From: Planctomycetota bacterium
GTDB taxonomy: Bacteria; Planctomycetota; UBA11346
NCBI GenBank assembly: GCA_014193115.1
Contig: BJHQ01000002.1
Span: forward strand, 382,815-446,814
Length of the DNA: 64,000 bases
Direction of reading: 5' to 3'
A program made the position numbers and the translations under genes. A model generated the notes under the pieces. The model ran no database searches. It had not been told where the DNA came from and worked only from the letters and a program-made list of their open reading frames with translations. The stretch's first letter is position 1, and the number at the start of each line of letters is the position of its first letter. Shown piece after piece: positions 10,800 through 56,154 of this stretch.

Positions 10800-11645
10800 T
10801 CAGGCGCGACCGAGGCTGGATGGTGACAAACCGAAGCGGCGGCGGAAACGCTGGCAGAAATGCGGGTACGACGGCATCCCCACCTGGCGGGCCACGGCGG
10901 ATAATGGCACTCGGGTAGTAGTGATCAGCTCCATCGCGCGTTCCAGCCGCCGATCGATGATCCAGGCGTAGGGACTGAAGCCGCGGTGCGCTCGGAATTG
11001 GCGCGCGAAGTGGGCCGGACTGATTCCCGCGGCAGCGGCCAGATCGGTCACTCCCAGGGTCGGATCATCAAGTCGCTCTTCCGCCGCGGCGAGGGCGCGC
11101 GCGAGCGCTGGCGGGCAGCGGCTGGGCTGCTGGTGCTGGCGCCAGAGGCTGTGCACAAGGCGGTGCAGCAATTCAGCCGCTATCAGCGGGTCGGCCCGGG
11201 TTGAGCGGGCATGCTCGTGCAGGGCGTGCAGCAGGCGCCGTCCTGGGGCACGCGGGTCGAGATCCCACACCGGTCCATGAGCCGCATCGAGAGCGGTGGC
11301 GTGGGCGGCGATCCCTGGACCCTTGGCAAGCAGCCAGAGGAAATCCCAGTCACTGCCCTCGGCGCGCCAGTACTGCGTTGGCGAGGGGAACGGCACGATG
11401 AAGGCCGTTCCTGGCGGCAGCGGGATCTGGCGTCCGGTGCGATCGTCGGCGAATATCCCCATCCCTGCCAACGTCAACTGGACCACCCAGGCCGATGGAC
11501 GCTGATGATTGCGCCAATGGAAGGGAACCTCGCGAGGCTGGTATTGGCGGGCGATGACCAATGGCTGGTAGTCGGCCGGCAGGTGCTGATCCGGAACGGG
11601 GAAGGGGATCGCGCCCAACGGCAATCGGTCGAGAATACCGCTCAT
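10800..11645 (-). CDS. AraC-family transcriptional regulator
   Basis: The product is 281 residues from ATG 11645. The track start at 11759 would overlap the divergent PhyH gene, so I reject it. The N-terminal half is a cupin-like sensor (ADDRTGRQIPLPPGTAFIVP). The C-terminal ~100 residues carry both AraC helix-turn-helix motifs (VTDLAAAAGISPAHFARQF and LSAVARQVGMPSYPHFCQRF). It is divergent from the PhyH gene at 11752 across 106 bp and probably controls it. A TATAAA lies 19 nt upstream of this start. The effector is unknown. Confidence 0.9.
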   Translation of the reverse strand: MSGILDRLPLGAIPFPVPDQHLPADYQPLVIARQYQPREVPFHWRNHQRPSAWVVQLTLAGMGIFADDRTGRQIPLPPGTAFIVPFPSPTQYWRAEGSDWDFLWLLAKGPGIAAHATALDAAHGPVWDLDPRAPGRRLLHALHEHARSTRADPLIAAELLHRLVHSLWRQHQQPSRCPPALARALAAAEERLDDPTLGVTDLAAAAGISPAHFARQFRAHRGFSPYAWIIDRRLERAMELITTTRVPLSAVARQVGMPSYPHFCQRFRRRFGLSPSSLGRA

Positions 11646-11738
11646 GGTGCCATGATCGATCCGTTTATACAGCTGCACAGCAGGAATGCGCAGGAGCCTG
11701 AGCGAAACGTGCTGTTGCTCGCCGCCAGATGACGTCGC

Positions 11739-11744
11739 TAGAAT
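11739..11744 (+). promoter_or_regulatory. -10-like hexamer TAGAAT, possible leaderless promoter
   Basis: TAGAAT ends 7 nt before ATG 11752. A TTGCTC hexamer lies 18 bp further upstream as a possible -35. The implied transcript would start at or next to the start codon. An in-frame ATG also overlaps the hexamer at 11743, so the start is not settled. Confidence 0.4.
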
Positions 11745-11751
11745 GACGGGC

Positions 11752-12564
11752 ATGACCACCCCGATCTCTCTGCCGCCGCTCAGCGACGAGCAACGCTACC
11801 TCTTCGACCTGCAGGGCTTCCTGATCCTCCGTCAGGTGGTGCCGGCCGCGCAGATCAAGCGCGCCAATCTGGCGATGGAGCGGCTGGAAGCGCTCAGCGA
11901 TGCCGAATTCCCGCCTCGGGTCGTCCTGGGCAGTCCGCGCACCGCTGCCAACCTGTACATCTCGAACCTGCTCGAATCCGGAGCCGAATTCGACGATTTT
12001 ATCGACGTTCCTGCCGTGCTGGGGGTGATCCGCGGCGTGATCGGGACGCAGTTCCGGCTCAACCACGCCTATTCCATCACTCGGCATGAGACGGGATTCA
12101 CCGGCCTGCACATGGGCGGAACCCCGTTGGTGCCCCAGGCGCCCTATGCCGTGCTGGGCGGCAGCATCTATTCGCCCCTGACCAAGGCGGTCTTTCCCCT
12201 GCTGCCCTGTCGGAGTGAAGACGGCTGCTTCGCCGCCATCCCGGGTTCGCACAAGAGCAGCTTCCGCCGGCCCTGGGGCGACCATCCGCAGCAGAATCCC
12301 GCCCTGGTGCCGGTTATCGCCGATCCCGGCGACGCCATCGTGTTCAGCGAGGCGATGACCCACGGATCGATGGTGAACACCTCCGGCCGGTTGCGCCGGA
12401 CTTTGTATTTCTGCTACAGCCAGGCGTGGACCACCGACTGGACCAGCCAGGGTCTGCGCTTCAGCAATGAATTGCTGGCCAGGCTCGTCCCCGACCGGCG
12501 CGCCCTGCTCGCCCTCGCGGATGGCGCCGGCAGCGCGCCGGTGCCGATGCGGTACCTGGATTGA
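11752..12564 (+). CDS. PhyH-family dioxygenase with HxG in place of HxD
   Basis: This is a phytanoyl-CoA dioxygenase-like Fe(II)/2-oxoglutarate enzyme of 270 residues from ATG 11752. The family core is visible: the N-terminal DLQGFLILRQVVP helix-strand, EDGCFAAIPGSHKSSF, and the distal THGSMVNTSGRLRR with His204 and the 2-oxoglutarate Arg (215 or 216). The first metal motif, normally His-x-Asp, reads HMG at residues 120-122, so the acidic ligand is missing. The neighbour gene at 20784 shows the same change. In characterised Fe/2OG halogenases this Asp is Gly or Ala, leaving room for a halide; whether that holds here is inference. It is divergent from an AraC gene, with another AraC gene 86 bp downstream. 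Confidence 0.85.
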   Translation: MTTPISLPPLSDEQRYLFDLQGFLILRQVVPAAQIKRANLAMERLEALSDAEFPPRVVLGSPRTAANLYISNLLESGAEFDDFIDVPAVLGVIRGVIGTQFRLNHAYSITRHETGFTGLHMGGTPLVPQAPYAVLGGSIYSPLTKAVFPLLPCRSEDGCFAAIPGSHKSSFRRPWGDHPQQNPALVPVIADPGDAIVFSEAMTHGSMVNTSGRLRRTLYFCYSQAWTTDWTSQGLRFSNELLARLVPDRRALLALADGAGSAPVPMRYLD

Positions 12565-12650: not shown

Positions 12651-13550
12651 ATGCAACGTCTTCCCGGTCCCCTGCCGCAGGCGAAAGGGCAGCATCATTG
12701 GAGCGTCGAGGAATGCTTTCGCCCCGGCATGGCTCGGGTGAAAGAATTCTTGCACCGCGATTACGCCATCGGCATGCACACCCAGGGCTTCATTGAGGTC
12801 AACATCATCTCAGCAGGCCAGGGCTGGCATCACCTGGAGGAGCAGGTTTTCGCCGTCGCGGCCGGAGACGCCTTCGTCATCCCTGAAGGCGCCCGCCACG
12901 GCTATGAACGGCGTGGCCGATTGGACGTCCAACACCTGCTGCTCCATCCACAGTACGTGGCTGAGCACCTGCATCGGCTCCTTGCGGTGCCGGGCTTCCT
13001 GCAATTGTTCACCGTCGAGCCGTTCTTCCGTGCCGAAGAAGGCGTCCGTCATCGCCTTCGCCTGGATCGCGCTACCACGACCGAACTGGTCCGTCTGCTG
13101 GCAAGCATCACCAAGGTATCCAATCGTTCGCCTGCCGCGATTCTTACTGCCGAGGCCCTGGCGTTAGCGGCGCTGGCCCGCCTCTGCCAGGCCTGGTCTG
13201 ACGATCATCCGGGTTCTACCGCCACCAGTCCACGCTTGAATGCGGTGCTGGCGGTGATCGACACCATCGAACAACGCTTCGCGGAAACCCTGCCTTTGTC
13301 CGATCTTGCCAGAGCCGCCGACCTGACGCCTTCGGCCTGCTGCCGCCTGTTCCGCACGGTCACCGGCACGACCCCGATGGTGCACCTACGCCAGGTGCGT
13401 TTGCGCCACGCAGGTGTCTTGTTGCGCTCTGGACTGCCTTTGGCTGAGGTCGCCACGCGCACCGGCTTCTACGACGCCGCCCATCTGGCACGGGTGCACC
13501 GGCGGATCCTGGGCATCACGGCCGCGTCGCTGCGCCGTGGAGAGGCGTGA
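12651..13550 (+). CDS. AraC-family transcriptional regulator with cupin sensor
   Basis: 299 residues from ATG 12651. Residues ~40-110 form a cupin sensor (MHTQGFIEVNIISAGQGWHH, AVAAGDAFVIPEGARHGYER). Residues ~200-299 are the AraC DNA-binding domain with LSDLARAADLTPSACCRLF and LAEVATRTGFYDAAHLARVH. It lies 86 bp after the HxG-type PhyH gene on the same strand. Its stop codon is followed directly, with no gap, by a remnant of a PhyH 3' end, so this locus has been rearranged. It may control the PhyH gene before it or the convergent one after it. Confidence 0.9.
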   Translation: MQRLPGPLPQAKGQHHWSVEECFRPGMARVKEFLHRDYAIGMHTQGFIEVNIISAGQGWHHLEEQVFAVAAGDAFVIPEGARHGYERRGRLDVQHLLLHPQYVAEHLHRLLAVPGFLQLFTVEPFFRAEEGVRHRLRLDRATTTELVRLLASITKVSNRSPAAILTAEALALAALARLCQAWSDDHPGSTATSPRLNAVLAVIDTIEQRFAETLPLSDLARAADLTPSACCRLFRTVTGTTPMVHLRQVRLRHAGVLLRSGLPLAEVATRTGFYDAAHLARVHRRILGITAASLRRGEA

Positions 13551-13690: not shown

Positions 13691-14518
13691 TCACCAGCTG
13701 GTCATCTCACCCAGCAGCAATCTGGTCCGGGATGAACCCTGCTCACGCAAACGTTTGACTTTGGGGCCATCAAATTTTTCTCGCGATTTTGTCCATGCAT
13801 GCTGGTAGCTGAACAAACATACCCGACGCGGGGCTGGTCCCTGATGGGCACCCCCGCGATGCCACATATCGCTATCGAACAGCACGGCCTGACCAGGGCG
13901 GGGAAATAGTCGCACCTCTTCAGGATGGCGGTTGGAGGATCCAGCCGATTGGATTTTCCCCCCGCGTTGGCTTCCAGGAATGCAGATGAACGGTCCTGAG
14001 TCGGGATCCACGTCGAGGTAATATCCACAGACGATCTGGGAGGGGATTCCGCCATGTGGGATTCCGATCTGATCGACTGCCCAAGGAAAATCACGGTGCC
14101 AATGCTGATCCCCCTTTCCCGGGGGAACGATGCGGGCAGTGGCAGAGTGGAGCTGAAGCCATTCACCAAGGATAGCATGGAGTCGCCGCATAACGGCTGG
14201 GACTTCCAGCAATACCGCAAACCGATCGTCCTCTTCCAGCAGGGCGTGGATGAGCTCCTGTTTTGGATGGCGTTGTACCAGCCCATCCAGCGCGAGGCGC
14301 AGGTCGGCGATGGTCGCCGCATCCAAGACATCATCGATCACCAGCCAGCCATGCCGAAGGAAATGGAGGACGTCGGGATCCTGGAACGCGGCTGGGCCCT
14401 GGCCCAGGGTTGTTGGTAATTGCAATTTGGTTTGGGTGTAGGGCTCCGCAGTCCGTTCGGCCACCACTGACGGTTTCGATCCGGTGGCCGTAGAGGCAGG
14501 CGATGAAGGATCTTTCAT
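13691..14518 (-). CDS. PhyH-family Fe(II)/2OG dioxygenase (canonical HxD)
   Basis: 275 residues from ATG 14518; the longer start at 14557 lies upstream of a strong promoter-like TATAAT and is unlikely. Iron ligands are visible as HWHRDFPW (His-x-Asp, near residue 140) and a distal DMWHRGG, followed by a PRRVCLF Arg that would bind 2-oxoglutarate. GPFICIPGSQRGG is the family's PGSH-like turn. It is convergent with the AraC gene and the PhyH remnant, only 14 bp from the latter. It shares little sequence with the HMG-type PhyH proteins here beyond the fold. The substrate is unknown; typical reactions are hydroxylations of small hydrophobic molecules. Confidence 0.85.
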   Translation of the reverse strand: MKDPSSPASTATGSKPSVVAERTAEPYTQTKLQLPTTLGQGPAAFQDPDVLHFLRHGWLVIDDVLDAATIADLRLALDGLVQRHPKQELIHALLEEDDRFAVLLEVPAVMRRLHAILGEWLQLHSATARIVPPGKGDQHWHRDFPWAVDQIGIPHGGIPSQIVCGYYLDVDPDSGPFICIPGSQRGGKIQSAGSSNRHPEEVRLFPRPGQAVLFDSDMWHRGGAHQGPAPRRVCLFSYQHAWTKSREKFDGPKVKRLREQGSSRTRLLLGEMTSW

Positions 14519-14526
14519 GAACACTA

Positions 14527-14535
14527 TTATATCAC
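14527..14535 (-). promoter_or_regulatory. Extended -10 promoter TGATATAAT, probably leaderless
   Basis: On the minus strand the sequence reads TGATATAAT then 8 nt and ATG 14518. This is a perfect TATAAT with the TGn extension, so a good -35 is not needed. The expected transcription start falls at or 1-2 nt before the start codon. Confidence 0.6.
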
Positions 14536-14636
14536 GGGATTGGCCTGCGATTTGCACACCCTGGTCATCCGCTTGGATGGGATTGTCTCGCGTTTTCTGG
14601 TTTCAACTGCGATGCTCGGTACGCGCGATCAGGTGA

Positions 14637-20770: not shown

Positions 20771-20776
20771 TAGGAT
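20771..20776 (+). promoter_or_regulatory. -10-like hexamer TAGGAT before PhyH start
   Basis: TAGGAT ends 7 nt before ATG 20784, matching the TAGAAT arrangement at 11739. As there, an in-frame ATG overlaps the hexamer 9 nt upstream (20775), so either ATG could be used. Confidence 0.4.
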
Positions 20777-20783
20777 GCCGCCC

Positions 20784-21656
20784 ATGGACACCTTCCAACG
20801 CTACGAGTTCGACCGCCAGGGCTACCTCGTCCTCCGCAACCTGATCCCCGCCGACCTGGTCTCCCGCCTGAGCGCGACCGTGGAACGGATCGAGGAATCC
20901 GCCAGCGCGCTTGCGCCGGACGATCGTCCACACCGATCCCTGTGGGGCAGCACCTATCATCATGACCGGCGACAAGGGGTGCTGATCCACGGGCAGCGCA
21001 AGCAAGGTGGAACGTTCCTGATCGAGGATTTCTGGAACGCCGACCCGGTGTTCGATCAGCTCATCGATTTCCCGGCGACCATGGACATCGTCCGTGCGGT
21101 GGTGCGCGACCGGGTGACGATCAACAATTCCGAGATCCGGATCCGTTATCAGGGCAACTACACCGGAGCCCATATGGGCGGACCGATCGGCAAAAAATAC
21201 CAGTACCGCACTGATGTGGATGGCATCGACTGCACCATGGTGCGGATGGTGTATTTCCTTCAGCACGTCAAGGCAGAAGATGGAGCCTTTTCGGTGGTTC
21301 CGGGCACCCACAAAAGTGCTTTTCCGCCGCCGACAGCCAAATTGCCCGAAGATGAACCCGGCGCGATCCCGCTCGAAGTCGGACCTGGCGATGCGATCTT
21401 TTTCACTGAGCACCTGCGCCACGGCGGCTTCACCAACCGCGGCAATCAAACCCGCCGCACCCTGCACGTCGGCTACGGACCGTGCTGGATGCGTTCCCAG
21501 AACATCGCCACCATGGATGAGATGCCGTACCTGACCCCCGCGACCTGGGAGCGCCTGACTCCGGCGCGACGCGAGCTGTTCCTTGCCGGACCGATAGAGA
21601 ACCAAGGTTCACGCCTGCCCCACGGCAGCCGAGCGGCGCTGCTCTCGGCTGGCTGA
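20784..21656 (+). CDS. PhyH-family dioxygenase with HxG in place of HxD
   Basis: 290 residues from ATG 20784 (ATG 20775 is possible). It belongs to the same subfamily as 11752: FDRQGYLVLRNLIPADL, GAHMGG, EDGAFSVVPGTHKSAF and EHLRHGGFTNRGNQTRR. The first metal motif is His130-Met-Gly132 instead of His-x-Asp. The distal His213 and the 2-oxoglutarate Arg (224 or 225) are kept, so cofactor binding looks intact and only the carboxylate ligand is gone. That pattern is known from Fe/2OG halogenases, but a family-wide alternative ligand or a changed reaction is equally open. It faces an AraC gene tail to tail with a 5-bp gap. Confidence 0.85.
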   Translation: MDTFQRYEFDRQGYLVLRNLIPADLVSRLSATVERIEESASALAPDDRPHRSLWGSTYHHDRRQGVLIHGQRKQGGTFLIEDFWNADPVFDQLIDFPATMDIVRAVVRDRVTINNSEIRIRYQGNYTGAHMGGPIGKKYQYRTDVDGIDCTMVRMVYFLQHVKAEDGAFSVVPGTHKSAFPPPTAKLPEDEPGAIPLEVGPGDAIFFTEHLRHGGFTNRGNQTRRTLHVGYGPCWMRSQNIATMDEMPYLTPATWERLTPARRELFLAGPIENQGSRLPHGSRAALLSAG

Positions 21657-21661
21657 CCGGG

Positions 21662-22525
21662 TCACTCGGCGGAGCGCGTCCGGGCGGCGAAGGCCGCTGG
21701 CGGTTCCCCAACCAGGCGGGAGAAGACCCTGGTGAAATGCTGCACGTTGGCGAACCCGGCGCGCCGTGCAGCGGCCTTGACGGTCATGCCGCCCCATTGC
21801 AGGTCGGCCTTTGCCCGTTCGATCCGCGATCTCCTCCGATAGGCCATCGGCGCCAAACCGTAGTGCCGGGTGAAGGCGGCGGCAAAGGCGCTACGGCCGA
21901 GATGGGCGACGGCGGCCACGTCTTCCAACCGAACCGGGCCATTGGCGTCGTCCAGATGGCGACGGGCTCGTTCAAGGTGCGGATCCGGCGCAGGCAGCGA
22001 CCCGCCGGATCCGAACCGGCGCAGCACCACCGCGAGCAGCTCCAGCATCGACGCCCGCTGGACCAGCAGGTCGGAACCAGCGGCCGCAGGCCAGGTCCGG
22101 GCCAGTCGGCGAAATGCGGCTACATACGCGGCTGGGGGGTGCACCGTCAGCACGTGGACCTGGTCGGCGGGCAATGGCCCTGGCGCCCCCGGCGGCCGGG
22201 GCCGACGGGCATCCTGATGCCAATGCACTGCCGTCGAATCCGCGCGCTGGGCCGGGTCGTAGTGGACGTTGAGCAGATTGACTCCGGAGAGTTCTTTGAG
22301 CGAAAACGCATGCTCGCGATCCGGCGGGACGACCAGGACTGTTCCCGGCCCCACGGCCTGATCCCGTCCGTCGGTTTGCAGGGTGCCCTCCCCGCGGTGG
22401 ATGTAGAGCAAGGCATGATCGTTTATGCGCCGTGCGGGCAGATGAAAAATCTGACCGGCCTGGAAATCGTGAACCAGCCGGACGAACGGAGCGCAACCGG
22501 CGATCGGATCGGCCATGCCGGACAT
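21662..22525 (-). CDS. AraC-family transcriptional regulator
   Basis: 287 residues from ATG 22525, chosen for AGGAAG about 6 nt upstream; the track start at 22597 adds 24 unlikely residues. The cupin-like sensor is visible as HALLYIHRGEGTLQTDG and VGPGTVLVVPPDREHAF, and the two HTH motifs as LEDVAAVAHLGRSAFAAAF and VKAAARRAGFANVQHFTRVF. It is convergent with the HxG-type PhyH gene, ending 5 bp from it. It probably belongs to the same regulator/oxygenase unit though not co-transcribed. Confidence 0.9.
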   Translation of the reverse strand: MSGMADPIAGCAPFVRLVHDFQAGQIFHLPARRINDHALLYIHRGEGTLQTDGRDQAVGPGTVLVVPPDREHAFSLKELSGVNLLNVHYDPAQRADSTAVHWHQDARRPRPPGAPGPLPADQVHVLTVHPPAAYVAAFRRLARTWPAAAGSDLLVQRASMLELLAVVLRRFGSGGSLPAPDPHLERARRHLDDANGPVRLEDVAAVAHLGRSAFAAAFTRHYGLAPMAYRRRSRIERAKADLQWGGMTVKAAARRAGFANVQHFTRVFSRLVGEPPAAFAARTRSAE

Positions 22526-22715
22526 GGTGTCTTCCTGGACGAACGGACAAGGACGCCGGACAGGCCAATCCAGCCGAACCTGCGCCTTCGCCAACACCCA
22601 AATTCCTCACCAAAAACGATGCGCAGGCCCCGCGATGCGTAATGCCAGTTCAGGAAGTCTGAACTTCCTGATCACCAGGTTGATTGCAATTGATCGGCGC
22701 ATGCCGACCCCCTCA

Positions 22716-28900: not shown

Positions 28901-28923
28901 ATACCTGCATACCATGCAGGTAT
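28901..28923. promoter_or_regulatory. 10-bp palindrome overlapping PhyH start codon
   Basis: ATACCTGCAT and ATGCAGGTAT are perfect complements separated by ACC. The right arm runs into the start codon at 28922. It contains TACCAT, a possible -10, 6 nt before ATG. It could be a repressor operator or a hairpin covering the start. Confidence 0.7.
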
Positions 28924-29866
28924 GAACGCCCCCCTCCGCCAGCCCGCCACTGCTTCTGTCCAGGTTGCTGATGCCGTCTCTGACGCCCAGGTGAGATCCT
29001 TCGTCGACGACGGTTTCCTGGTCGTTCCTGATCTGGTCGCGCCGGCTGAGATCGAGTTGCTCAAGCGGGACACCGCCGACCTCGCCCGGGGCAAGTATCC
29101 CTGCAAGAGCCTCCAACCGCTGCCAGCGGACCTGGATGACCAGCAGGTGCTGGAAAGCCTGCTGTGCATCCACCAACCCCACAACGTCAGTCCGGTGATC
29201 AAGGATTTCGTCACCCACGCCGGCATCTGTGGGGTCCTTGGGCGGATCGTCGCTGCCCACCTGCCGCACTGGGACGGGGCGGTGAAATGCATGCAATCCA
29301 TGCTGTTCGTGAAGCCACCAGGCAAACCAGGCCAGGCCTGGCACCAGGACGAGATGTACATTCCGACCCGCGATCGCAGCCTGTGCGGAGCCTGGATCGC
29401 CATTGATGACGCCACCATCGAGAACGGCTGCCTGTGGGTGGTTCCCGGATCGCATCGCGATGGTTATCTGTTCCCGTCGAAGTCCCCTGAAGATCTGGTC
29501 GAGTATGATGGCTCCAACCAATGCTACGAATTCGACGAAGCGAAAGCCGTCCCGGTCGAAGTGAAAAGCGGATCCGTGGTCTTCTTCAATGGCTACCTGC
29601 TCCATAAATCCCTGCGCAACCGCAGCACGATCTATCGTCGGGCCCTGGTCAGCCACTACATGAACTCGTGGTCGCTGCTGCCCTGGTCGATCCCTAAGGA
29701 AGGAACCTCGGTGGCTACCGCCGACATCCGCCGCGTGATCCAGGTCTGCGGCACCGATCCGTACGCTCACAAAGGCTATGATCCCCCTGGCGATGATGTC
29801 CACCTGCGTAAATGGGGCGAAGCGTGGCAGAAGGTCAAAGCTGCTGCGGCGGTCCCAAAAAGTTGA
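28922..29866 (+). CDS. PhyH-family Fe(II)/2OG dioxygenase (canonical HxD)
   Basis: 314 residues from ATG 28922. The iron motif is His141-Gln-Asp143 in AWHQDEMYIPTRDRSL, followed by ENGCLWVVPGSHRDGYL and the distal YLLHKSLRNRS with the RRALVSHY Arg that would bind 2-oxoglutarate. It is a complete, typical member, probably a hydroxylase of a small molecule. No dedicated AraC gene flanks it, but its start codon is overlapped by a strong palindrome. A convergent GH28 gene follows after 124 bp. Confidence 0.85.
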   Translation: MNAPLRQPATASVQVADAVSDAQVRSFVDDGFLVVPDLVAPAEIELLKRDTADLARGKYPCKSLQPLPADLDDQQVLESLLCIHQPHNVSPVIKDFVTHAGICGVLGRIVAAHLPHWDGAVKCMQSMLFVKPPGKPGQAWHQDEMYIPTRDRSLCGAWIAIDDATIENGCLWVVPGSHRDGYLFPSKSPEDLVEYDGSNQCYEFDEAKAVPVEVKSGSVVFFNGYLLHKSLRNRSTIYRRALVSHYMNSWSLLPWSIPKEGTSVATADIRRVIQVCGTDPYAHKGYDPPGDDVHLRKWGEAWQKVKAAAAVPKS

Positions 29867-31563: not shown

Positions 31564-32280
31564 TCACCGCGGTGGTATGTCCAGCGCTTTTACGGCTGAT
31601 CTCAGTTCTGCCATGCTGTTGGGATGCAGACGACCTGGTGACGCGAAGGTCCCCAGGCACACGCCCTCGCCATCCCAACGACCAGCCCAAGAGGCACAGG
31701 AATGCCACTGGTGGGTACGGCATTCGATCCAGCCTTGCCTGCGCAGCCGGCGCAGTTCGTGATCCAGCTCGTCGCGCAACAGGATGCCCGGCCACTGGCG
31801 TGGCTGGGGTAGGCCGAGGTGGGCGATGAGCAGGTTCCGATGACGCGGGGCGAGATGGGCGAGAAGCAGCCGGCCGGTGGCGGTGCCATACAGGTCCTGA
31901 TCCTGGGCGCTGGAAATCTCGGCGTTGTCGCCCTGCGGCGAGCGTAACAGCAAAACCTGACGACGATCACCGCGCAGACGCACCACCACCACGCTCTGGC
32001 CCAGGCGCGCGGCCAGCCGGGCAGCCACCGGTCGCACGTTTCGCACCAACTCCTCCAGGTAGGGCCGACGTTCAGCGAGGAGCTGGGGGCGGAGTCCCAG
32101 GCGATAAGGTCCCCGCGGCGCCACTTGGTCGGCCCAGTCCAGGCGCACCAGAGCGGCAAGTAGGCGTGCGCAGGTCGCCGGGGGCAGGTGGCAGCGCTCT
32201 GCGAGTTCACCGAGGCTGGCCAGCGGTCGCTCGGCGAGCGCATCGAGCAATGCGGTTGTCCGCGCCAAACTCCGGCTCAT
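31564..32280 (-). CDS. IclR-family transcriptional regulator
   Basis: 238 residues from ATG 32280, with AGGA about 9 nt upstream; the track start at 32304 lies inside the operator-like palindrome. The N-terminal winged helix reads SLARTTALLDALAERPLASL and GELAERCHLPPATCARLLAA. The C-terminal half is the IclR effector-binding domain (GTATGRLLLAHLAPRHRN, LDHELRRLRRQGWIECR). It is divergent from the canonical PhyH gene at 32365 across 84 bp and is its likely regulator. This is the only PhyH partner in the window that is IclR rather than AraC. Confidence 0.9.
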   Translation of the reverse strand: MSRSLARTTALLDALAERPLASLGELAERCHLPPATCARLLAALVRLDWADQVAPRGPYRLGLRPQLLAERRPYLEELVRNVRPVAARLAARLGQSVVVVRLRGDRRQVLLLRSPQGDNAEISSAQDQDLYGTATGRLLLAHLAPRHRNLLIAHLGLPQPRQWPGILLRDELDHELRRLRRQGWIECRTHQWHSCASWAGRWDGEGVCLGTFASPGRLHPNSMAELRSAVKALDIPPR

Positions 32281-32297
32281 GCGACCATCCTGGCTGA

Positions 32298-32314
32298 ATT
32301 CCACCTAATGGAAT
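32298..32314. promoter_or_regulatory. Candidate IclR operator
   Basis: ATTCCA and TGGAAT are perfect complements 5 nt apart, placed in the divergent gap between the IclR and PhyH starts. IclR-type regulators bind short TTCCA/TGGAA-like palindromes, so this is the natural candidate site. Confidence 0.55.
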
Positions 32315-32364
32315 CCGGGCAGCGGGATGTGCAGCCGATCGAGTGGCCAGTAGCATCACAACCC

Positions 32365-33123
32365 ATGATGAACCTTACCGACAACGACGTTGAGCGCTAC
32401 CACGCCGACGGATTCCTGCACCTGCCAGGGCTGCTCGATCCGGCGCGTATGGCCGCTGTTGCAACGGCGGTGGATCGCCTTCCCCAGACCCACTCCCACC
32501 TGATCCATGAGGACAACATCAGAATCGAATACAGCCTGGCCAAGCCAAAGGGCGTCTGGAAATGGGATCCGGTGATCGACATCTGTCCAGAGATCGCGGC
32601 TCTGGCTGCAGATACCATCCTGATCGAGGTGCTCACCCGGATCTTTCGCGGATCGCCGCCACGCCTGTTCAAAGATAAAATGATCCTGAAACCGCCGGGT
32701 TCACAGGGCAACGATCTGCATCAGGACTATACCTGGTGGCAAGGCTTCCCCGACAGCCTGCTGACCGTGACTATCGCTATTGATGGCGCGGACGAACAGA
32801 CCGGCTGCACCGAACTGTGGCCCGGCATGCACCGACAAGGTTTGTACCATGCGCCCGGAAAAATGGCCATGATCGATCCGGCTGTGGTCGCTGGAAGGCC
32901 GTCCCGCTTGTTCGTTTCGCGGCCAGGCGACGTTGCCCTCTTTCATTGCTTGACGCCGCATCGTGCTGGTGCCAACCGCAGTGACCGGAACCGTCGGCAG
33001 CTGTTCCTGACCTATCACGACAGTGCTGCTGGCGATTATTATCAAGCCCATTACCGCCACTTTCTCAGCTATCGGAGGGCCATGCTGCCGCCTGAACGGC
33101 GTGCTGCATGTCATTTGGCGTAG
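32365..33123 (+). CDS. PhyH-family Fe(II)/2OG dioxygenase (canonical HxD)
   Basis: 252 residues from ATG 32365 (or 32368); the track start at 32188 lies inside the IclR gene. Iron motif His-Gln-Asp in NDLHQDYTWWQGFPD, the family turn CTELWPGMHRQG, and the distal FHCLTPHRAGANRSDRNRRQ with the 2-oxoglutarate Arg. A TAGCAT hexamer sits 8 nt before the start codon. The protein is a complete typical member. Together with the divergent IclR gene it forms a regulator/oxygenase unit. Confidence 0.85.
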   Translation: MMNLTDNDVERYHADGFLHLPGLLDPARMAAVATAVDRLPQTHSHLIHEDNIRIEYSLAKPKGVWKWDPVIDICPEIAALAADTILIEVLTRIFRGSPPRLFKDKMILKPPGSQGNDLHQDYTWWQGFPDSLLTVTIAIDGADEQTGCTELWPGMHRQGLYHAPGKMAMIDPAVVAGRPSRLFVSRPGDVALFHCLTPHRAGANRSDRNRRQLFLTYHDSAAGDYYQAHYRHFLSYRRAMLPPERRAACHLA

Positions 33124-47366: not shown

Positions 47367-50300
47367 TCATCTCAGCACCCGGACCGCATGCTCTCGCCCG
47401 TCCTCGACCAGCGGGATGCGGCCATCCGCGCACACCTGGCCATCACACGTGGTCTGCGGCGTGCCTGAGCCGGTGGTCACCTGGATGTTGTAGGTCGCGG
47501 TGCCGGCCCGGTAAACCACGGTGAAATCGCCAAAGTCGGCTGAGGTGGTAGGTGAAACCCGCAAGTATCCGCCGGTCTTGGTGAGGCCGAGCAGGGATTC
47601 CAGGATCAGGCGCAGCATCCAGCCGGCGGAACCGGTGTACCAGGTCCAGCCGGCGCGGCCGATGTGGCCAGGGGCGCGGTAAACGTCGGCGGCGAGGACA
47701 TAGGGCTCGCCCTGCCAGCGATCGGGGTCGGCGCCGTGGCGGATGGGGTCGATCAGGCGGGTCAGCTCCAGGGCCTTGGCGCCGTCGCCGAGGGCGGCGA
47801 AGGCCATGGCGGTCCACACTGCGGCGTGGGTGTACTGGCCGCCGTTTTCACGCACCCCCGGCGCATAGCCTTTGATGTAACCGGGCTCCACCGGGCCATG
47901 ATCGAAGGGCGGGTCGAACAGCAGGATCAGGCCCTGATCGCGGAGGACCAGCAGACGTTCCACGGTGTCGAGGGCGATCCTGGCCCGGGCGGGATCGCCG
48001 GCTCCCTCCGGTCCCTTGGCCAGCGAGAGCGCCGCCCAGGCCTGGGGCAGGGCGTCGATCCGGCATTCCACCGACGTGGCGCTGCCCAGGGCGACGCCGT
48101 CGTCAGTCCATGCCCGCAGATACCGGTCATGCTCCCAGGCGGTGGCTTCGATCCGGGTGCGCAGGCCGATTGCCTCTGAGAGCAACCGAGCCGACAGCTC
48201 GGCATCGCCCACCGACTGGGCCACCGGAACAAACCGGCGCAGGCAATCGATCAGGAAGAATCCCAGCCAGACGCTTTCCCCTCGGCCCAGGCGGCCGACC
48301 CGGTCCATGCCATCGTTCCAGTCGCCGCTGCCCATCAAAGGCAAGCCGTGGCTGCCGAAGCGCAGCCCGTGCAACAGCGCCCGCACCGCATGCTGATAGA
48401 TGGTGGCCTGTTCATCGCTGATCTGGGGCAGGTCATAGACGGAATCAAGTTCCGCCGGCACCGCCGCGGCCTTCAGGAAGGGCAGCCGCTCATGGAGCAG
48501 CGCCGGATCGCCCCCGGTCTCCAGGTACCGGCAGAGGGCGTAGGGCAGCCAGAGATAGTCATCGCTGATCCGGGTACGGACCCCGCGGCCCTGGGGCGGA
48601 TGCCACCAGTGCTGGACATCGCCTTCGCTGAACTGCCGGCCGGCGCAGCGGCGGATCTGCTCCTTCAGGAAATGCGGAGCGTGGTGGACCAGGGCCATGC
48701 TGTCCTGGAGCTGGTCGCGGAAGCCCCAGGCCCCACCGGACTGCGAAAAGCCGCTGCGGGCGAGGATGCGGGCAGAGATGATCTGGTAGCCCAGCCAGCC
48801 GTTGGCGAGCAGATTGATGGTCGGATCGCAGGTGGACACCTGCACGGTGCTGAGCAAGTGCTTCCAGTGCTCATAGACCCGTGACAAGGATTCCCGGGCA
48901 GGCCCGGCACCCCGGCGGGCCAGGGCCTGGCTGCGGGCGTGGGCCCGGTCGCGGCCGCAGCCGATGGTGAAGACCACTTCCTGCTCTTCGCCCGGGGCCA
49001 GTTGGATCAGCACCTGGGCGGCTGCGCAGGGGTCGAAGCCGGCTCCGCAGCGACCGAGCAGGTTGCCGGCGGCCATGGCATCAGGGCGGTCGGCCAGGCT
49101 GCCGCGACCGAGGAACTCCGTGCGATCGCAGGTCCATCCGTGCAGGCGGCGGCTGGCGGCGAGGAAGGCATGGCGCTGGGATTCGTCGTCGTGCAGGGGA
49201 TTGCGGGCGAACAGCACGCCGTCCTCGTGCTCGGTGACCAGGTTGCCCTGGGTGCGTTCGCGCAGTTCGCCCAGGGTCCATTCCAGGAACATGGTCACGG
49301 TCAGCCGGCGTTCCCGGCCGCTGCGGTTGGCGATCAGCAGGCGCAGGTGCTTGACCGGCTCCACCGCATCGACCCAGGTGTGCAGTTCCGTGGCCAGGCC
49401 TTCCTCGCCTGCCATGAAAGCGCTGTAACCGAAACCGTGGCGGACCACCCGGGTGCTGCGGCCGGGCAGCGGGCCCGGGGTCGGCGACCACACCGCGCCG
49501 GTGTCCTCATCGCGGATCAGGGTTAGCTCGCCAAAGGGATCGGCCACCGCGTCGCAGCGCCAGGGAGTCAGGCGGAACTCGTGGCAATTACCGGCCCAGG
49601 TATAGGCGGCGCCGCGTTCGCTGACCACGGTGCCGAACGATTCGTTGGCCAGGACATTGCACCACGGCAGCGGCGTGGTCCGGCCCGGCGGCAAGATGAT
49701 GATGTATTCCCGGCCATCGCTGGTGAACCCGCCCAGTCCGTTCCATTGCGACAGGGTGAAGGTTGACGCCGCCAGCGGTTCATCGCGCAGCTGCGGCCGG
49801 GTCGGGCGGAAACGCGGCGCAGGGCTGTCAGGACGCACCCGTCGCTCCGAGAACTGGCCGAGGTTCCCCACCACATCGGCGATCACCAGGCTCGCCACCG
49901 CCGCCAGCAGGTGGCGGTCTTCCTCGGGGACCTGGTCGAGGCGGCGCACGAAGATGCCCCCCGGCCGGTCGATCTGGCCAGCCGACGGACCGGCCATGAC
50001 CAGGCCGAGGATGCGCTCGGTCTGCTCTTGCCGATAGATCGACGGATCTTCGATCAGGATCACCAAGTCCACCGCCAGGCCGCGTGAGCGCCACCAGGCA
50101 TGGGCGCGCAGGACCTGACGGACCAGGTCGGTGCGCTGGCTGTCCGTGACCCGCATCAGGCAGATCGGCAGATCGCCGGAGATGCCGTAGCTCCACAACC
50201 CGGCCCGGGTCCGGCGATTGCGCAGCATGGTGGCTGGGGCCGAACGTCTGTGAACCACCGGCACCACCAGGGAACCGGCCAGTCTGGCGAAGACCTGGGC

Positions 50301-53300
50301 CTCGGCTCCGCTGGCACCGATCTGCGACAGGACCACCTGGCCGTGGGTGTAGGCGAGGCCGAAAACCCGGTTGGCGATGTGCTCGTCCCGATAGCGTTGA
50401 GCCAGGGCCAGGGCCGCCGCCCGGGTCGGAGCCACGGCATAGATCACATCGACGATGATCCGGCCGCCGGCCGGCACGGTCACCTGCCGGCGCAGGGCCA
50501 GCACCGGATCGAGCACGCCTCCCACGGTGCCACCCAGGGCTTTGCAGGGACCTTGCAGCGCCTGCGGGGCGTGGAGGTGGCCGCCGCGGCCGAGGAAGGC
50601 CCGCCGATCGGTCTCGAAGGAGATCTCTCCGCCTGCCGCCTCGCCTCTCGGCACCAGGAGATGCACCAGCCACAACCGGGCGTCCTCGGGATGGCGCGGC
50701 CGCCGGGTCGCCAGCACCGCCTCGGCTTCGGGCACCATCTCGGTTTCGATGAACAGGTTGCTGAAGGCGGGATGGGACAGGTCGGCCACCGCCGGCGCCA
50801 GCACCGGTTCGACATAGGTGGTCAGTTCCAGCCGGCGATCGTCCTCGCCATGGTTGGCCAGATGCAGCCGGCGCAGCTCGACATCGTCCTCCGGGGAAAT
50901 GGCGATCTCAGTATGGGTGCTGAGGTCGCCATCACGCCGGCGGAATTCGGCCCGTCCCTGGGAGAACACCGCTTCGTAGAGTCGAGCCGTGCGATTACTC
51001 GGAAAATGGCAGGCCGACCAGCAGGCACCGGCGCCGGAGTGGTCATCAGAACGGTCGCCAGTGAGCACGTCGCGGAGATAGAGCCCGGGGCCGCCGCCAT
51101 CGCCGGTCGGATCCGCCCGCCACCGGGTCACGCTCAGATCGTTCCACCGGCTGCCGCCGGAACCCGAGGCGAACACCAGGCAATGGTAACGGCCATTGGA
51201 GAGCAGCTGGACCTCGGCTGCGGCGGGATGGGGCTGGGTGATGACCCTCAGGGCGGAATCCTGGCCAAGCGACAGGCTGCCTCCGGGCTGGTCGGTCTCT
51301 TCGCTCGGCCCCTGGATCGGCACCGGCCGCTCCTCAAGCAATAGTCGATGTGCCAGCAGTTGCGGATCAGCCAGGAACCGCCGGCGCATCGGTGCGTCTT
51401 CCAGGACGTGCAGGAACGCGAGCAGGGCCATGCCCTGGTGGTGGGCCATCCAGGAACGGATGACCACCAGCGGCACCCCCACCGGCAGCCGGCTGGGGGT
51501 GAAATCGATGGCATCGCAGAAGCCGAACCGCCCCATGGATCCCAGGGATTCCAGCTTGTGGAGATTGGCCACTGCCGCCTCGGGATCGATCAGCAGGCCG
51601 AGGGCGCAGGCATAGGGCGCGACCACCAGATCCTCGGCCAGGCCGCGTTTCATGCCCAGGCTGGGCACGCCGAAGGCCCGATACTGCCAGTTGAGCGAGG
51701 CATCGGTGTGGTAGTAAGCTGACTCCGAGATGCCCCAGGGCACACCTCGGCTGGCGGCGTAGCGGATCTGTTCGGCCACCGCCGTGCGGTTGCTGTCATC
51801 GATCAGGGTTCCCGGCTCTTCGGGCATGACCAGGGACGGCATCAGGTATTCGAACAGGGTTCCGCTCCACGAGACCAGGACCTGACCGCCGCCGCCCAGC
51901 CAGCCGGCGGTGAGATCCGCCGCCACGCCTCCGGCCAGTCCATCGGCCAGAGTGCGGACCTGACGCCGGCCGAGATGGAACCAATGGTCCTGGCTGATCG
52001 AGCCGGTGGCGATCGCGACGTACGAACCGAGGCGCGATTCGCTCGCCAGCAGATCATAGGAACTGTCATCCAGCCTCGTGTCGTCGCACCGGTAGCCGAT
52101 GGCGAACAGCTTGGTCCGACGGTCGTACAGGAACGGCCACTCCATCCCCAGGGCCAGGGCGGTCATCGCATCGGCCAGCGACCGGGCCCGGTCGAGGTCC
52201 GCGGCCAAGACCTCCGGCTCGGCCTGCTGCTCGGCCCAGGTCTGCCTGGCGGACGCCAGCCACATCCCGGCTTCGGACTTGGCGGTTGCATCCCTTGGTT
52301 CCGACATGCTGTCCAGCAGCTGGTCCAGGCGCAGCCCGATCCCGGCCAGGTCGCAGGTCAGCACGTCGTTGGCCAAGGCTAGGGCCTGCGGAGTTCCGGC
52401 GCAGGCAAGGGTGGCAGCCAGTCCGCGCCGCCGGCGAGCGGTTTCGACTCTGTCCGGCAGGGCCCGCAGGCCAGCTGCCAGGACCAGCAGATGCCCGGCC
52501 AGGTTGCCGCTGTCCACGGTGGAGACGTAGCGCGGAGTCAGGACCTGGCCGGTGCGGGTGTCATACCAGTTGAACAGATGCCCGCGATGGCGGGCGAGGG
52601 CGTTGGTCGAGTCCCAGGTGAGCTCCAGCCGGCGGATCAGTCCGCCGGTGGTCAGCCAGCCGAGGTCATGGGCGGCCAGATCGGCGAGCAGGGCCAGGCC
52701 GATGTTGGTCGGGGAAGTGCGATGAGCGATGGCCTGAACCGGTTCATCCTGGACGTTGTCGGGCGGCAGATAGCGATCCTCGGCGCTCCAATTTTCAGTG
52801 AAGAACCGCCAGGTTTTCCGCGCGCAGACATCAAGATACCGCCGATCAGATAAACCCAGGATGACCGTGGCGGAACGGCGCGGACGGGACAACCCCCACG
52901 CCATGAACGGGGCCAGGATCCACAGGATGCCCAGCGGGACGGCAACGACTCCCAGCCCTGGGCGGAACCCGGCCAACAGGATGGCGAGGACCCCAGCCGT
53001 TGGTGCCGGCCACATGGTCAGGATCACGTCGGTCAGGCGACCGCTGGCCAGGCGTTCCGCCTCGGACGAGGTCTGCCATTCCTGGAGATGGCGATGGCTG
53101 ATCAGCAGGCGCCACATGGTGCGCAGCACTGCCCGGGTTTGAATGACGGCCTCGAAGGGCAGGACCGCCAGCCCACCCGCCGCCACCAGGGATCCCTGAC
53201 CGAACCGCTGGCGGGCCAGGCGGAGATGGCTGGACCACGGCAGTTCAAGATCCTTGTGCAGGATGCCCAAGGCCCCGAGCACGGTCGGCAGCAACGCCAG

Positions 53301-55907
53301 TCCGAGGATGCCTGCACTCACCACCAAGGCCGATGGCATGTCTGCGCCAATCCACACCGCTGCCAGCAGGCCCACGGACGCGGCCGCCAGCAGGCTGCGG
53401 CGCAGGTTGTCCAGGATCTTCCAACGGGCCAGTTCTCCGAGCACATTGGCCGCATGCCCATGGGCGCTGGCTACGCTCCGCGCCAGCCACGGCAGCAGCT
53501 GCCAGTCGCCCCGGATCCAGCGGATCCGCCGGGCGACGTCCGCCAGGTAACGGGCAGGGTGGTCTTCGACCAGCAACACGTCGCTGATCAGGCCGGCGCG
53601 GGCGAAGCTGCCTTCGATCAGGTCGTGGGACAAGATGGCATTGTCGGGAAAGCGGCCGTCCATCACCGACGCAAAGGCAGCCAGGTCATAGATGCCCTTG
53701 CCGATGAATGAGCCCTGGTCGAACAGATCCTGGTACACATCCGAGACGGTGCGGGTGTAGGGATCGAAACCGGCTTCGCCGGACCACCAGGTGGCGAACC
53801 AGGAACGGGTCGAGCTGCCCAGGCTGGTCACGATCCGGGGTTGCAGGATCGCGTGGCCGGCAACCACCAGGCCATCGCGCACGACCGGCCAGTTGAGCGG
53901 ATGGGCCATGGCCGCGACCAGGTCGCGGCCGGCATCCCGGGGCAGCCTGGTGTCGGCGTCGAGGACCAGGACGTAACGGACCGCGGTCAGACGGGTCGCA
54001 TCACCAACCACCACGGTGAAGGCCGAGCGCTCGCCGCGCAGCAGGAATCCGTTGAGATCCTCGATCTTGCCGCGTTTGCGTTCGCGGCCCATGAACACCC
54101 CTTCGCCGGCATTCCAGCACCGGGGCCGGTGGAACAGATGGAAGCGATCGCCGTGGCGGCGGTTCAACGCAGCGATCGCCGCCGTCGCGCTGCTGAGCAG
54201 CAGGGCGTCGGCGGGCATGTCCACCCGATCGGCATCGGCGAAATCGGTCAGCAGGGCGAATCTCAGGCCCGACTCCCGGTTGGCCAAGGAGCGCACCAGC
54301 AACCCGTCGGTCAGTTCCTGGACATCGATGGCCGAGCGGAGCAGGCAGGGCACCACCACCAGGCAGGTCCGGTCTGCCGGGATGCCTTCGGAATAATCCA
54401 TGCGCGGCATCCGTTCGGCCCTGGCGCAACAAGTCGAGATCCAATTGGTGACCGCCACCGCCGCCTGGCTGGCGGGGATGACCGACAGGATTCCGACCAG
54501 CACGGCGAACCAGGTCTGCCCACCCATCAGCAGCCACGCTGCGCCGGTGAGAACTGCGGTCAGCACCAGGATGGACAGGACGAACCAGGCCAACGCCAAT
54601 GGTCTGGTGCCCCGATCGCTCGGATGGCGCAGGCCGTGGACTTGGGCCAGGTGCTGCTCCAGCTGCCGCCGGCCGTCGCCGATCAGCCACCACCCGACGT
54701 GCTGCTGCGCAGGATGTCTCACGGATCCGGTCTGCTGTCCGGCATCGGCTGGCGCTTGGGCCAGGGCCATGGCGGCCTCCGCCACCGCCCGCTCGGCGGC
54801 CGCTCCGGGCGGATGGCAGCGGCGGGCCAGGCCCTCGATCGCCTTGCGGTAGCGGTCCCTGGTGCCGGGATCCATGGCCGGATGCACCGGATCCTGGCGC
54901 AGAACCGCCTCGACCGGGCTCTGCTCCTCGACGAACGTCCGCCAATCGATGGTCGCCATCCGGCGCAGGCTGGTGATGGCGTGCTCGACCGCGAGCTGAT
55001 CGCTGGCCTGGACCTGGTGGTCCGCCCGCACCAGATCGGTCACCATCTGGTGGTGGTCGGCCAGGCGCTGGTCCAGCCACTGCATGACCAGGGCGACCTG
55101 GGGATTGAGGCCCTGGACCCGGCGATGAAGTTCGGCCACGAAGGCCTGGCTGAGCACCACCGAGCGGGCCAGCTCGCTGATCACGATGACCAGAGAGCTG
55201 GGCTGCTCATCGGCGATCTGGCCGAGGCGGGCCGCCCACAGCGCCGCCAGCCGCCGCTGCTCCTCATGTCCGGCGACCCGCACCGCGACCCGGCGCAGGT
55301 TCTCGATCAGGGCCAGACGCAGCATGATCGGTACGGCCCACAATTCGCCCAGGGTCAGCGGAGCGATCTCCTGATACGCGGAAATGAACGCCGAAAGGCT
55401 GTCAGCATCGACCCGGCCGTCGGCATGGGCGATGAGCTCGATCGACAGGGCGTAGACCCGCGGCGCACCGGCGGGATCTCCGGTGGTCAGGCGGGGCAGT
55501 TCCCGGCTGTACCCCCGGGGCAGATGCCGCCGGGCGGTGGCGATCTGCTCCATGATCAGGTGCTGGTTGTCGAGCAGCCAGTCGCCGGCCGGCACCAGGG
55601 GCGCTGACAATGGCGTGGAAGCGGGGCCGTCGACCAACCGCTCCAGAATCCCGCGTAAGGTGGATTCGTTGTCCCGCAGCCGCTGCAACAGCTGGTTGCC
55701 GCCCCGGCGGACCTCCAGGCGGTGCCAGCCAGCAAGGTCGCGGCCGTGTCGGACCAACTGCGGAGTGGAGAAAATCTCCGCCCGCAACAGGCCATCCCCG
55801 GCCAGGATCTCATCCGGCAAGGGAGCCGGGGATAAGGACGGGATCAGGGTGGGCAGGACCACGGTCCGCTCCCGGTGCGCCTTCGCGGCTGGTGGGGCGG
55901 TGGTCAT
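47367..55907 (-). CDS. ndvB: Cyclic beta-1,2-glucan synthase
   Basis: 2846 residues, the size of the Rhizobium/Brucella NdvB/Cgs proteins. The order is: N-terminal region (1-430); membrane helices near 435-490; a glycosyltransferase with DADTRLPRD (~647), GKGIYDLAAF, LSHDLIEGSFARAG and RRIRWIRGDWQ; more helices at ~850-1010; a glucoamylase-like toroid (NVQDEPVQAIAHRTSPTNIG); then GH94-type phosphorylase-like domains with SGDWNDGMDRVG (~2529). It would polymerise glucose from UDP-glucose, cyclise the chain and export or trim it into the periplasm, in line with osmoadaptation or capsule-like roles. The start at ATG 55907 has no strong Shine-Dalgarno. It is in one uninterrupted frame. Confidence 0.9.
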   Translation of the reverse strand: MTTAPPAAKAHRERTVVLPTLIPSLSPAPLPDEILAGDGLLRAEIFSTPQLVRHGRDLAGWHRLEVRRGGNQLLQRLRDNESTLRGILERLVDGPASTPLSAPLVPAGDWLLDNQHLIMEQIATARRHLPRGYSRELPRLTTGDPAGAPRVYALSIELIAHADGRVDADSLSAFISAYQEIAPLTLGELWAVPIMLRLALIENLRRVAVRVAGHEEQRRLAALWAARLGQIADEQPSSLVIVISELARSVVLSQAFVAELHRRVQGLNPQVALVMQWLDQRLADHHQMVTDLVRADHQVQASDQLAVEHAITSLRRMATIDWRTFVEEQSPVEAVLRQDPVHPAMDPGTRDRYRKAIEGLARRCHPPGAAAERAVAEAAMALAQAPADAGQQTGSVRHPAQQHVGWWLIGDGRRQLEQHLAQVHGLRHPSDRGTRPLALAWFVLSILVLTAVLTGAAWLLMGGQTWFAVLVGILSVIPASQAAVAVTNWISTCCARAERMPRMDYSEGIPADRTCLVVVPCLLRSAIDVQELTDGLLVRSLANRESGLRFALLTDFADADRVDMPADALLLSSATAAIAALNRRHGDRFHLFHRPRCWNAGEGVFMGRERKRGKIEDLNGFLLRGERSAFTVVVGDATRLTAVRYVLVLDADTRLPRDAGRDLVAAMAHPLNWPVVRDGLVVAGHAILQPRIVTSLGSSTRSWFATWWSGEAGFDPYTRTVSDVYQDLFDQGSFIGKGIYDLAAFASVMDGRFPDNAILSHDLIEGSFARAGLISDVLLVEDHPARYLADVARRIRWIRGDWQLLPWLARSVASAHGHAANVLGELARWKILDNLRRSLLAAASVGLLAAVWIGADMPSALVVSAGILGLALLPTVLGALGILHKDLELPWSSHLRLARQRFGQGSLVAAGGLAVLPFEAVIQTRAVLRTMWRLLISHRHLQEWQTSSEAERLASGRLTDVILTMWPAPTAGVLAILLAGFRPGLGVVAVPLGILWILAPFMAWGLSRPRRSATVILGLSDRRYLDVCARKTWRFFTENWSAEDRYLPPDNVQDEPVQAIAHRTSPTNIGLALLADLAAHDLGWLTTGGLIRRLELTWDSTNALARHRGHLFNWYDTRTGQVLTPRYVSTVDSGNLAGHLLVLAAGLRALPDRVETARRRRGLAATLACAGTPQALALANDVLTCDLAGIGLRLDQLLDSMSEPRDATAKSEAGMWLASARQTWAEQQAEPEVLAADLDRARSLADAMTALALGMEWPFLYDRRTKLFAIGYRCDDTRLDDSSYDLLASESRLGSYVAIATGSISQDHWFHLGRRQVRTLADGLAGGVAADLTAGWLGGGGQVLVSWSGTLFEYLMPSLVMPEEPGTLIDDSNRTAVAEQIRYAASRGVPWGISESAYYHTDASLNWQYRAFGVPSLGMKRGLAEDLVVAPYACALGLLIDPEAAVANLHKLESLGSMGRFGFCDAIDFTPSRLPVGVPLVVIRSWMAHHQGMALLAFLHVLEDAPMRRRFLADPQLLAHRLLLEERPVPIQGPSEETDQPGGSLSLGQDSALRVITQPHPAAAEVQLLSNGRYHCLVFASGSGGSRWNDLSVTRWRADPTGDGGGPGLYLRDVLTGDRSDDHSGAGACWSACHFPSNRTARLYEAVFSQGRAEFRRRDGDLSTHTEIAISPEDDVELRRLHLANHGEDDRRLELTTYVEPVLAPAVADLSHPAFSNLFIETEMVPEAEAVLATRRPRHPEDARLWLVHLLVPRGEAAGGEISFETDRRAFLGRGGHLHAPQALQGPCKALGGTVGGVLDPVLALRRQVTVPAGGRIIVDVIYAVAPTRAAALALAQRYRDEHIANRVFGLAYTHGQVVLSQIGASGAEAQVFARLAGSLVVPVVHRRSAPATMLRNRRTRAGLWSYGISGDLPICLMRVTDSQRTDLVRQVLRAHAWWRSRGLAVDLVILIEDPSIYRQEQTERILGLVMAGPSAGQIDRPGGIFVRRLDQVPEEDRHLLAAVASLVIADVVGNLGQFSERRVRPDSPAPRFRPTRPQLRDEPLAASTFTLSQWNGLGGFTSDGREYIIILPPGRTTPLPWCNVLANESFGTVVSERGAAYTWAGNCHEFRLTPWRCDAVADPFGELTLIRDEDTGAVWSPTPGPLPGRSTRVVRHGFGYSAFMAGEEGLATELHTWVDAVEPVKHLRLLIANRSGRERRLTVTMFLEWTLGELRERTQGNLVTEHEDGVLFARNPLHDDESQRHAFLAASRRLHGWTCDRTEFLGRGSLADRPDAMAAGNLLGRCGAGFDPCAAAQVLIQLAPGEEQEVVFTIGCGRDRAHARSQALARRGAGPARESLSRVYEHWKHLLSTVQVSTCDPTINLLANGWLGYQIISARILARSGFSQSGGAWGFRDQLQDSMALVHHAPHFLKEQIRRCAGRQFSEGDVQHWWHPPQGRGVRTRISDDYLWLPYALCRYLETGGDPALLHERLPFLKAAAVPAELDSVYDLPQISDEQATIYQHAVRALLHGLRFGSHGLPLMGSGDWNDGMDRVGRLGRGESVWLGFFLIDCLRRFVPVAQSVGDAELSARLLSEAIGLRTRIEATAWEHDRYLRAWTDDGVALGSATSVECRIDALPQAWAALSLAKGPEGAGDPARARIALDTVERLLVLRDQGLILLFDPPFDHGPVEPGYIKGYAPGVRENGGQYTHAAVWTAMAFAALGDGAKALELTRLIDPIRHGADPDRWQGEPYVLAADVYRAPGHIGRAGWTWYTGSAGWMLRLILESLLGLTKTGGYLRVSPTTSADFGDFTVVYRAGTATYNIQVTTGSGTPQTTCDGQVCADGRIPLVEDGREHAVRVLR

Positions 55908-56051: not shown

Positions 56052-56076
56052 GGAATCCTGCTGAATGCAGGATTCC
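56052..56076. promoter_or_regulatory. Perfect 10-bp inverted repeat upstream of the recombinase
   Basis: GGAATCCTGC and GCAGGATTCC pair perfectly around the loop TGAAT. It lies in the 247-bp divergent gap between the glucan synthase and the Xer-like gene, 79 bp before the chosen start, and overlaps the track's ATG 56065. There is no T run, so an operator or recombinase-related site is more likely than a terminator. Confidence 0.6.
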
Positions 56077-56154
56077 CGCCCGGTGATCCTGCTCGACGCA
56101 ATCCAGGTCCATCGGGACGCTGGCCTGGGCTGCGGCTCAGACGATCCTGCGCCG

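Follow-up and report, generated by a model that had tools for sequence, protein, structure and literature searches.

A PhyH-family protein without the HxD aspartate in a Planctomycetota bacterium belongs to a HygX-type clade with a conserved acid four residues before the distal histidine

What does a PhyH-type active site do when the aspartate of its HxD motif has given way to glycine? The question is raised by the gene at position 20784 of a 64,000-nucleotide stretch of Planctomycetota DNA (the window, in which all plain positions below are counted), whose product scores 64 bits against the PhyH profile PF05721, above the Pfam cut-off of 22. Its reading frame is open over 20775–21656, and the ATG at 20784, already chosen as the start in the first-pass annotation, is the start shared with the homologues. 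Numbered from this ATG, the residues of interest are H130, M131, G132, G133, H213 and R224. When these are set against the classic HxD…H triad with its 2-oxoglutarate (2OG)-binding arginine, both histidines and the arginine are present and the aspartate is absent, so that the protein can be read as a PhyH fold with a variant site. The annotation had likewise described HMG in place of HxD at H130–G132 with H213 and the 2OG arginine retained, the latter now assigned to R224. A frameshift or misassembly at the locus is ruled out by the intact homologues.

The same window supplies its own comparison (Table 1). The copy at 11752 is also of the HMGG type yet diverged, being 33% identical to the 20784 protein, and the window's remaining three PhyH proteins retain HxD (HQD at 28922 and 32188, HRD at 13691 on the reverse strand); both points agree with the first-pass annotation. 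At least four of the 44 PhyH matches in the source genome (5.25 Mb, 94% complete) fall in the Asp-less clade described below, namely the window genes 11752 and 20784 together with C2:195958 and C2:448320. A total of 44 matches in 5.25 Mb is a strong expansion, similar to that described for Poribacteria, where PhyH outnumbers every other domain family and is mostly of unknown function (PMC3909097).

Table 1. Coordinates of the PhyH genes, active-site codons and regulators discussed in the text
Feature	Position	Strand	Evidence
PhyH-family protein, 290 aa, HxG type (HMGG)	20784..21656	+	Pfam, homologue alignment
H130, proximal metal His, invariant	21171..21173	+	family alignment, clade column scan
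G132, aligned with the HxD Asp; Gly in 51/58 clade members, Asp in 67/67 others	21177..21179	+	
E209, acid conserved at −4 relative to H213; putative replacement for the HxD carboxylate (inferred role)	21408..21410	+	
H213, distal metal His, invariant	21420..21422	+	family alignment, clade column scan
R224, 2OG-binding Arg, invariant	21453..21455	+	family alignment, clade column scan
Other Asp-less PhyH of the window (HMGG; FSEAMTH with E at −4), HygX-type clade, branch other than that of 20784	11752..12564	+	
HxD control, PhyH with HRD	13691..14557	-	
HxD control, PhyH with HQD	28922..29866	+	
HxD control, PhyH with HQD	32188..33123	+	
Asp-less clade paralogue, 51% identical to 20784	C2:195958-196794 (outside window)		
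Asp-less clade member, HSGG	C2:448320-449144 (~1.5 kb past window end)		
AraC-type regulator (cupin sensor domain), adjacent to and convergent with 20784	21662..22597	-	
AraC-family-like regulator adjoining the 11752 copy	10800..11759	-	BLAST to other AraC proteins
AraC regulator 3′ of the 11752 copy	12651..13550	+	

When 84,980 species genomes were scanned, 66 loci related to 20784 were recovered at about 48–58% identity. The relatives are distributed over ten named phyla (by submitter names), comprising Chloroflexota, Latescibacterota, Gemmatimonadota, Verrucomicrobiota, Planctomycetota, Armatimonadota, Poribacteria, Handelsmanbacteria, Spirochaetota and Bacillota, the last represented by the isolate Paenibacillus mendelii. 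Across the 79 rows of the family alignment, the first histidine, the second histidine and the arginine are each found in 79/79 rows, the glycine position is Gly in 76/79, and HxD occurs in 0/79. The dN/dS of close family pairs is about 0.06–0.08; only close pairs are cited here, the values for distant pairs (up to 0.79) having been set aside as saturated. The ten-phylum spread, the invariant His/His/Arg set and the low close-pair dN/dS mark this as a maintained enzyme family and not a product of decay. Some loci hold more than one copy. In Chloroflexota (L097, L113, L115, L127 and L131), tandem family copies comprise one HMGG and one HCGG protein, and a Latescibacterota locus (L136:5116-8659) carries four consecutive PhyH genes (HMHG, HGGM, HVD and HCGG), three of them Asp-less.

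The distribution of the variant site was mapped on quick trees built without the trait columns, which contained CytC3 and the SyrB2-like protein L170 but not HctB, and in which HygX is a long branch. The 42 Asp-less rows, including HygX and the 11752 copy, form one clade with 98% SH-aLRT support, and CytC3 and L170 fall in the opposite half. A joint clade of all Asp-less proteins with CytC3 is rejected by the AU test (p=3e-5), which indicates that the aspartate was lost at least twice. Within the clade, H130, H213 and R224 are present in 42/42 rows of the column scan. The earlier suggestion that HxG is a conserved subfamily trait and not a random loss is therefore upheld: with HxD and HxG mapped on the tree, the Asp-less proteins make up one clade with their other active-site residues intact and are not scattered among damaged sequences.

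HygX, the oxygenase of hygromycin B biosynthesis (PDB 4XC9, 4XCA, 4XCB and 4ZPI), emerges as the relevant relative. When AlphaFold2 models of the 20784 and 11752 proteins (pLDDT 91 and 89) were compared with the PDB by Foldseek, the top 16 and top 15 matches, respectively, were all HygX chains, so that HygX is, judged by these models, by far the nearest solved structure to both proteins. The clade profile matches HygX at 1e-33, ectoine hydroxylase at 3e-22 and SyrB2 at 5e-9. Fold and clade are common to HygX and the 20784 protein, as are an HxG-type proximal motif (HGG within LHGG in HygX, which likewise lacks HxD), a glutamate at position −4 from the distal histidine (LNEALMH in HygX, the glutamate being E202 when counted along the 4XC9 chain), the 2OG arginine and the GSHK segment. 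By comparison, the two proteins are only about 20% identical, HygX has an insert after HGG and belongs to Streptomyces antibiotic biosynthesis, whereas the 20784 family spans many phyla and has an AraC neighbour in Planctomycetota. The 20784 protein is of the HygX type in having neither Asp nor Glu at HxD+2, an acid at −4, a place in the same clade and HygX as its nearest fold. The abstract of McCulloch 2015 reportedly describes a variant coordination of the metal by HygX. According to the titles of its PDB entries, HygX was crystallised with iron, with Ni and 2OG, and with hygromycin B, which indicates that both a metal and the cosubstrate can bind to an Asp-less site of this kind. The Asp-less site itself has a precedent in HygX; new are the spread of the clade, its signature and its misfiling under the halogenase rule considered below.

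Beyond what the first-pass annotation contained, our analysis reveals the link to HygX and a putative compensating acid at −4, E209, conserved like the metal ligands. In a set of 125 PhyH proteins made non-redundant with a 75% cut, an acid occupies this position in 57 of the 58 members of the Asp-less clade (E 44, D 13, Q 1), as compared with 3 of the 67 HxD proteins. The HxD+2 position is Asp in all 67 of these others; in the clade it varies (Gly, and also His, Glu, Thr, Ser, Pro and Leu) while the −4 acid stays. The 20784 protein reads FTEHLRH up to the distal histidine. In the column scan, only E209 and D10, the latter near the N-terminus, are acids that approach 98% in the clade and are well below this outside it (14% for the E209 column and 31% for the D10 column). 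In a held-out set of 20 further profile matches, which were picked with an acid-containing profile and are slightly biased toward the acid, E/D is found at −4 in 17/17 proteins without HxD and in 0/3 with HxD. On the tree, loss of the aspartate and gain of the acid amount in essence to a single event, and the 57 acid-bearing proteins among the 58 are therefore not 57 independent cases. The independent-pairs test for the two changes rests on 2–3 pairs and is not significant; with so few independent pairs, the pooled Fisher value (p=1.7e-29) is not taken as proof. Human phytanoyl-CoA 2-hydroxylase (2A1X) and ectoine hydroxylase (4MHR) share the PF05721 fold, distal histidine and 2OG arginine with the 20784 protein; they differ in retaining HxD (HSD in ectoine hydroxylase) and in having Pro or Cys at −4.

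In the reading we favour, and consider probable, the 20784 protein is a HygX-type Fe(II)/2OG oxygenase in which the lost aspartate is made good by E209. Iron would be held by H130 and H213, and 2OG by R224; the change from the HxD aspartate to glycine would open the site, and the negative charge lost with the aspartate would come from E209, most likely acting as third ligand to the iron or, alternatively, as a second-shell residue directed toward the open ligand position. A ferryl oxidation of the substrate would follow, either a hydroxylation or, like the reaction suggested for HygX, an oxidative cyclisation, and not a chlorination. A broader proposition, put forward more tentatively and about as open to doubt as to belief, is that in a large PhyH clade of at least ten phyla, HygX included, the facial-triad carboxylate has relocated from HxD to −4 (HxG…E/DxxxH), and that the HXG/A rule for halogenases is wrong there.

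An acid at −4 is, however, not exclusive to Asp-less proteins. In a SyrB2-like branch (L171–L173 and L176–L181) it stands alongside HxD, where it cannot be a replacement, and HctB has a glutamate at the same position. This glutamate, Glu223, four residues before His227, is close to the halide, and one computed model places it on the Fe–Cl axis (PMC6218459); position −4 would accordingly face the vacated ligand site, which favours E209 as a stand-in ligand. The same observations lend some weight to a two-histidine oxygenase, in which water fills the open site and E209 acts only in the second shell, by hydrogen bonding, proton relay or substrate binding, given that the −4 acid coexists with HxD in the SyrB2-like branch and that HctB Glu223 has been described as a second-shell residue (PMC6218459). 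Such a mechanism, which we regard as unlikely although worth serious attention, leaves unexplained a near-invariant acid exactly where the aspartate is missing. Furthermore, an Asp-to-Gly change in a prolyl hydroxylase abolished hydroxylation (PMC2767507), so that the bare loss is not tolerated there.

Halogenation by the 20784 protein is less likely than oxygenation. Here the glycine would make room for chloride on the iron, and chlorination would be tuned by a second-shell pairing of E209 with R224, as has been put forward for HctB. A missing HxD aspartate (HXG/A) is a published mark used to call halogenases (PMC12871659, PMC11186838), the 20784 protein carries it (HMG), and most clade members have a small residue at HxD+2 (Gly in 51/58). 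HctB resembles the 20784 protein in lacking the HxD aspartate (Val113 at +2, by the numbering of PMC6218459) and in its glutamate at −4 and, being a true chlorinase, shows that an acid there is compatible with chlorination; it differs as a fused multidomain enzyme acting on an acyl carrier. SyrB2 and CytC3 also share the PhyH-like Fe/2OG fold and have a small residue in place of the aspartate (HQA), but they have Ser at −4, belong to a separate lineage (CytC3 in the tree) and act on carrier-bound amino acids. The 20784 protein lies outside this lineage by the AU test above, and it scores 12 bits against TIGR01762 (chlorinating enzyme), whose cut-off is 226. In addition, the nearest relative, HygX, has been proposed to form an orthoester (PMC8234114), some clade members have bulky or charged +2 residues (His, Glu, Thr, Leu) that would leave little room for a chloride but still have the acid, and carrier-protein or NRPS genes were not seen among the neighbours examined. 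Taken together, these points make a halogenase doubtful. L170 itself, from another genome of the same phylum (G045:C1, about 2394334-2395116), is SyrB2/CytC3-like with HQA and a glutamate at −4 (FTERCIH), and is by its sequence a candidate Fe/2OG halogenase.

A decayed, catalytically dead PhyH protein retained for ligand binding or regulation would agree with the missing aspartate and with the fact that no activity is known for the 20784 family, but it is highly improbable in view of the intact frames across ten named phyla, the complete conservation of H130, H213 and R224, the low close-pair dN/dS and the binding of iron and 2OG by HygX indicated by the PDB titles.

These observations bear on how PhyH proteins are named. 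The Asp-less clade satisfies the HXG/A rule and is nonetheless kin to the oxygenase HygX and carries a conserved −4 acid, so that the rule would misname it; a second check, combining the −4 acid with membership of the HygX clade, would sort halogenase candidates better. If E209 binds iron, the 20784 protein would be a natural case of a catalytic carboxylate shifted in sequence, for which the HxD siblings encoded in its own genome provide controls. The clade also offers a testable handle on PhyH expansions.

The genomic setting gives hints of the substrate. An AraC regulator of one type adjoins a family gene at five planctomycete loci (including those in the window and at C2:195958) and in P. 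mendelii. These regulators match the AraC protein at 21662 over its full length with 28–51% identity, whereas other AraC proteins match it over 80–96 residues only. The next genes in P. mendelii resemble, by sequence appearance, a Gfo/Idh oxidoreductase and a sugar-type ABC transporter, and the window also encodes a GH28 protein, an FGGY sugar kinase and a GH95-like protein. Among the family loci, no operon partner conserved across all phyla was found; the only recurring neighbours are AraC in Planctomycetota and Paenibacillus and an amidohydrolase-like gene in Latescibacterota and some Gemmatimonadota loci. From this setting and the kinship with HygX, we would guess at a sugar-like, catabolic substrate for the HygX-type oxygenase, probably a sugar, a polyol or a related compound that the neighbouring AraC protein would sense. 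At L087:5187-5990 and about 12 other loci, mainly of Latescibacterota and Gemmatimonadota, the gene that is amidohydrolase-like by sequence lies just upstream of the family gene and is probably in one operon with it, which provides a further substrate hint. Elsewhere, the window holds a giant open reading frame of 2846 aa (47367-55907, reverse strand) and a tyrosine recombinase of the phage integrase family (56065-57141, forward strand), the latter possibly part of a mobile element.
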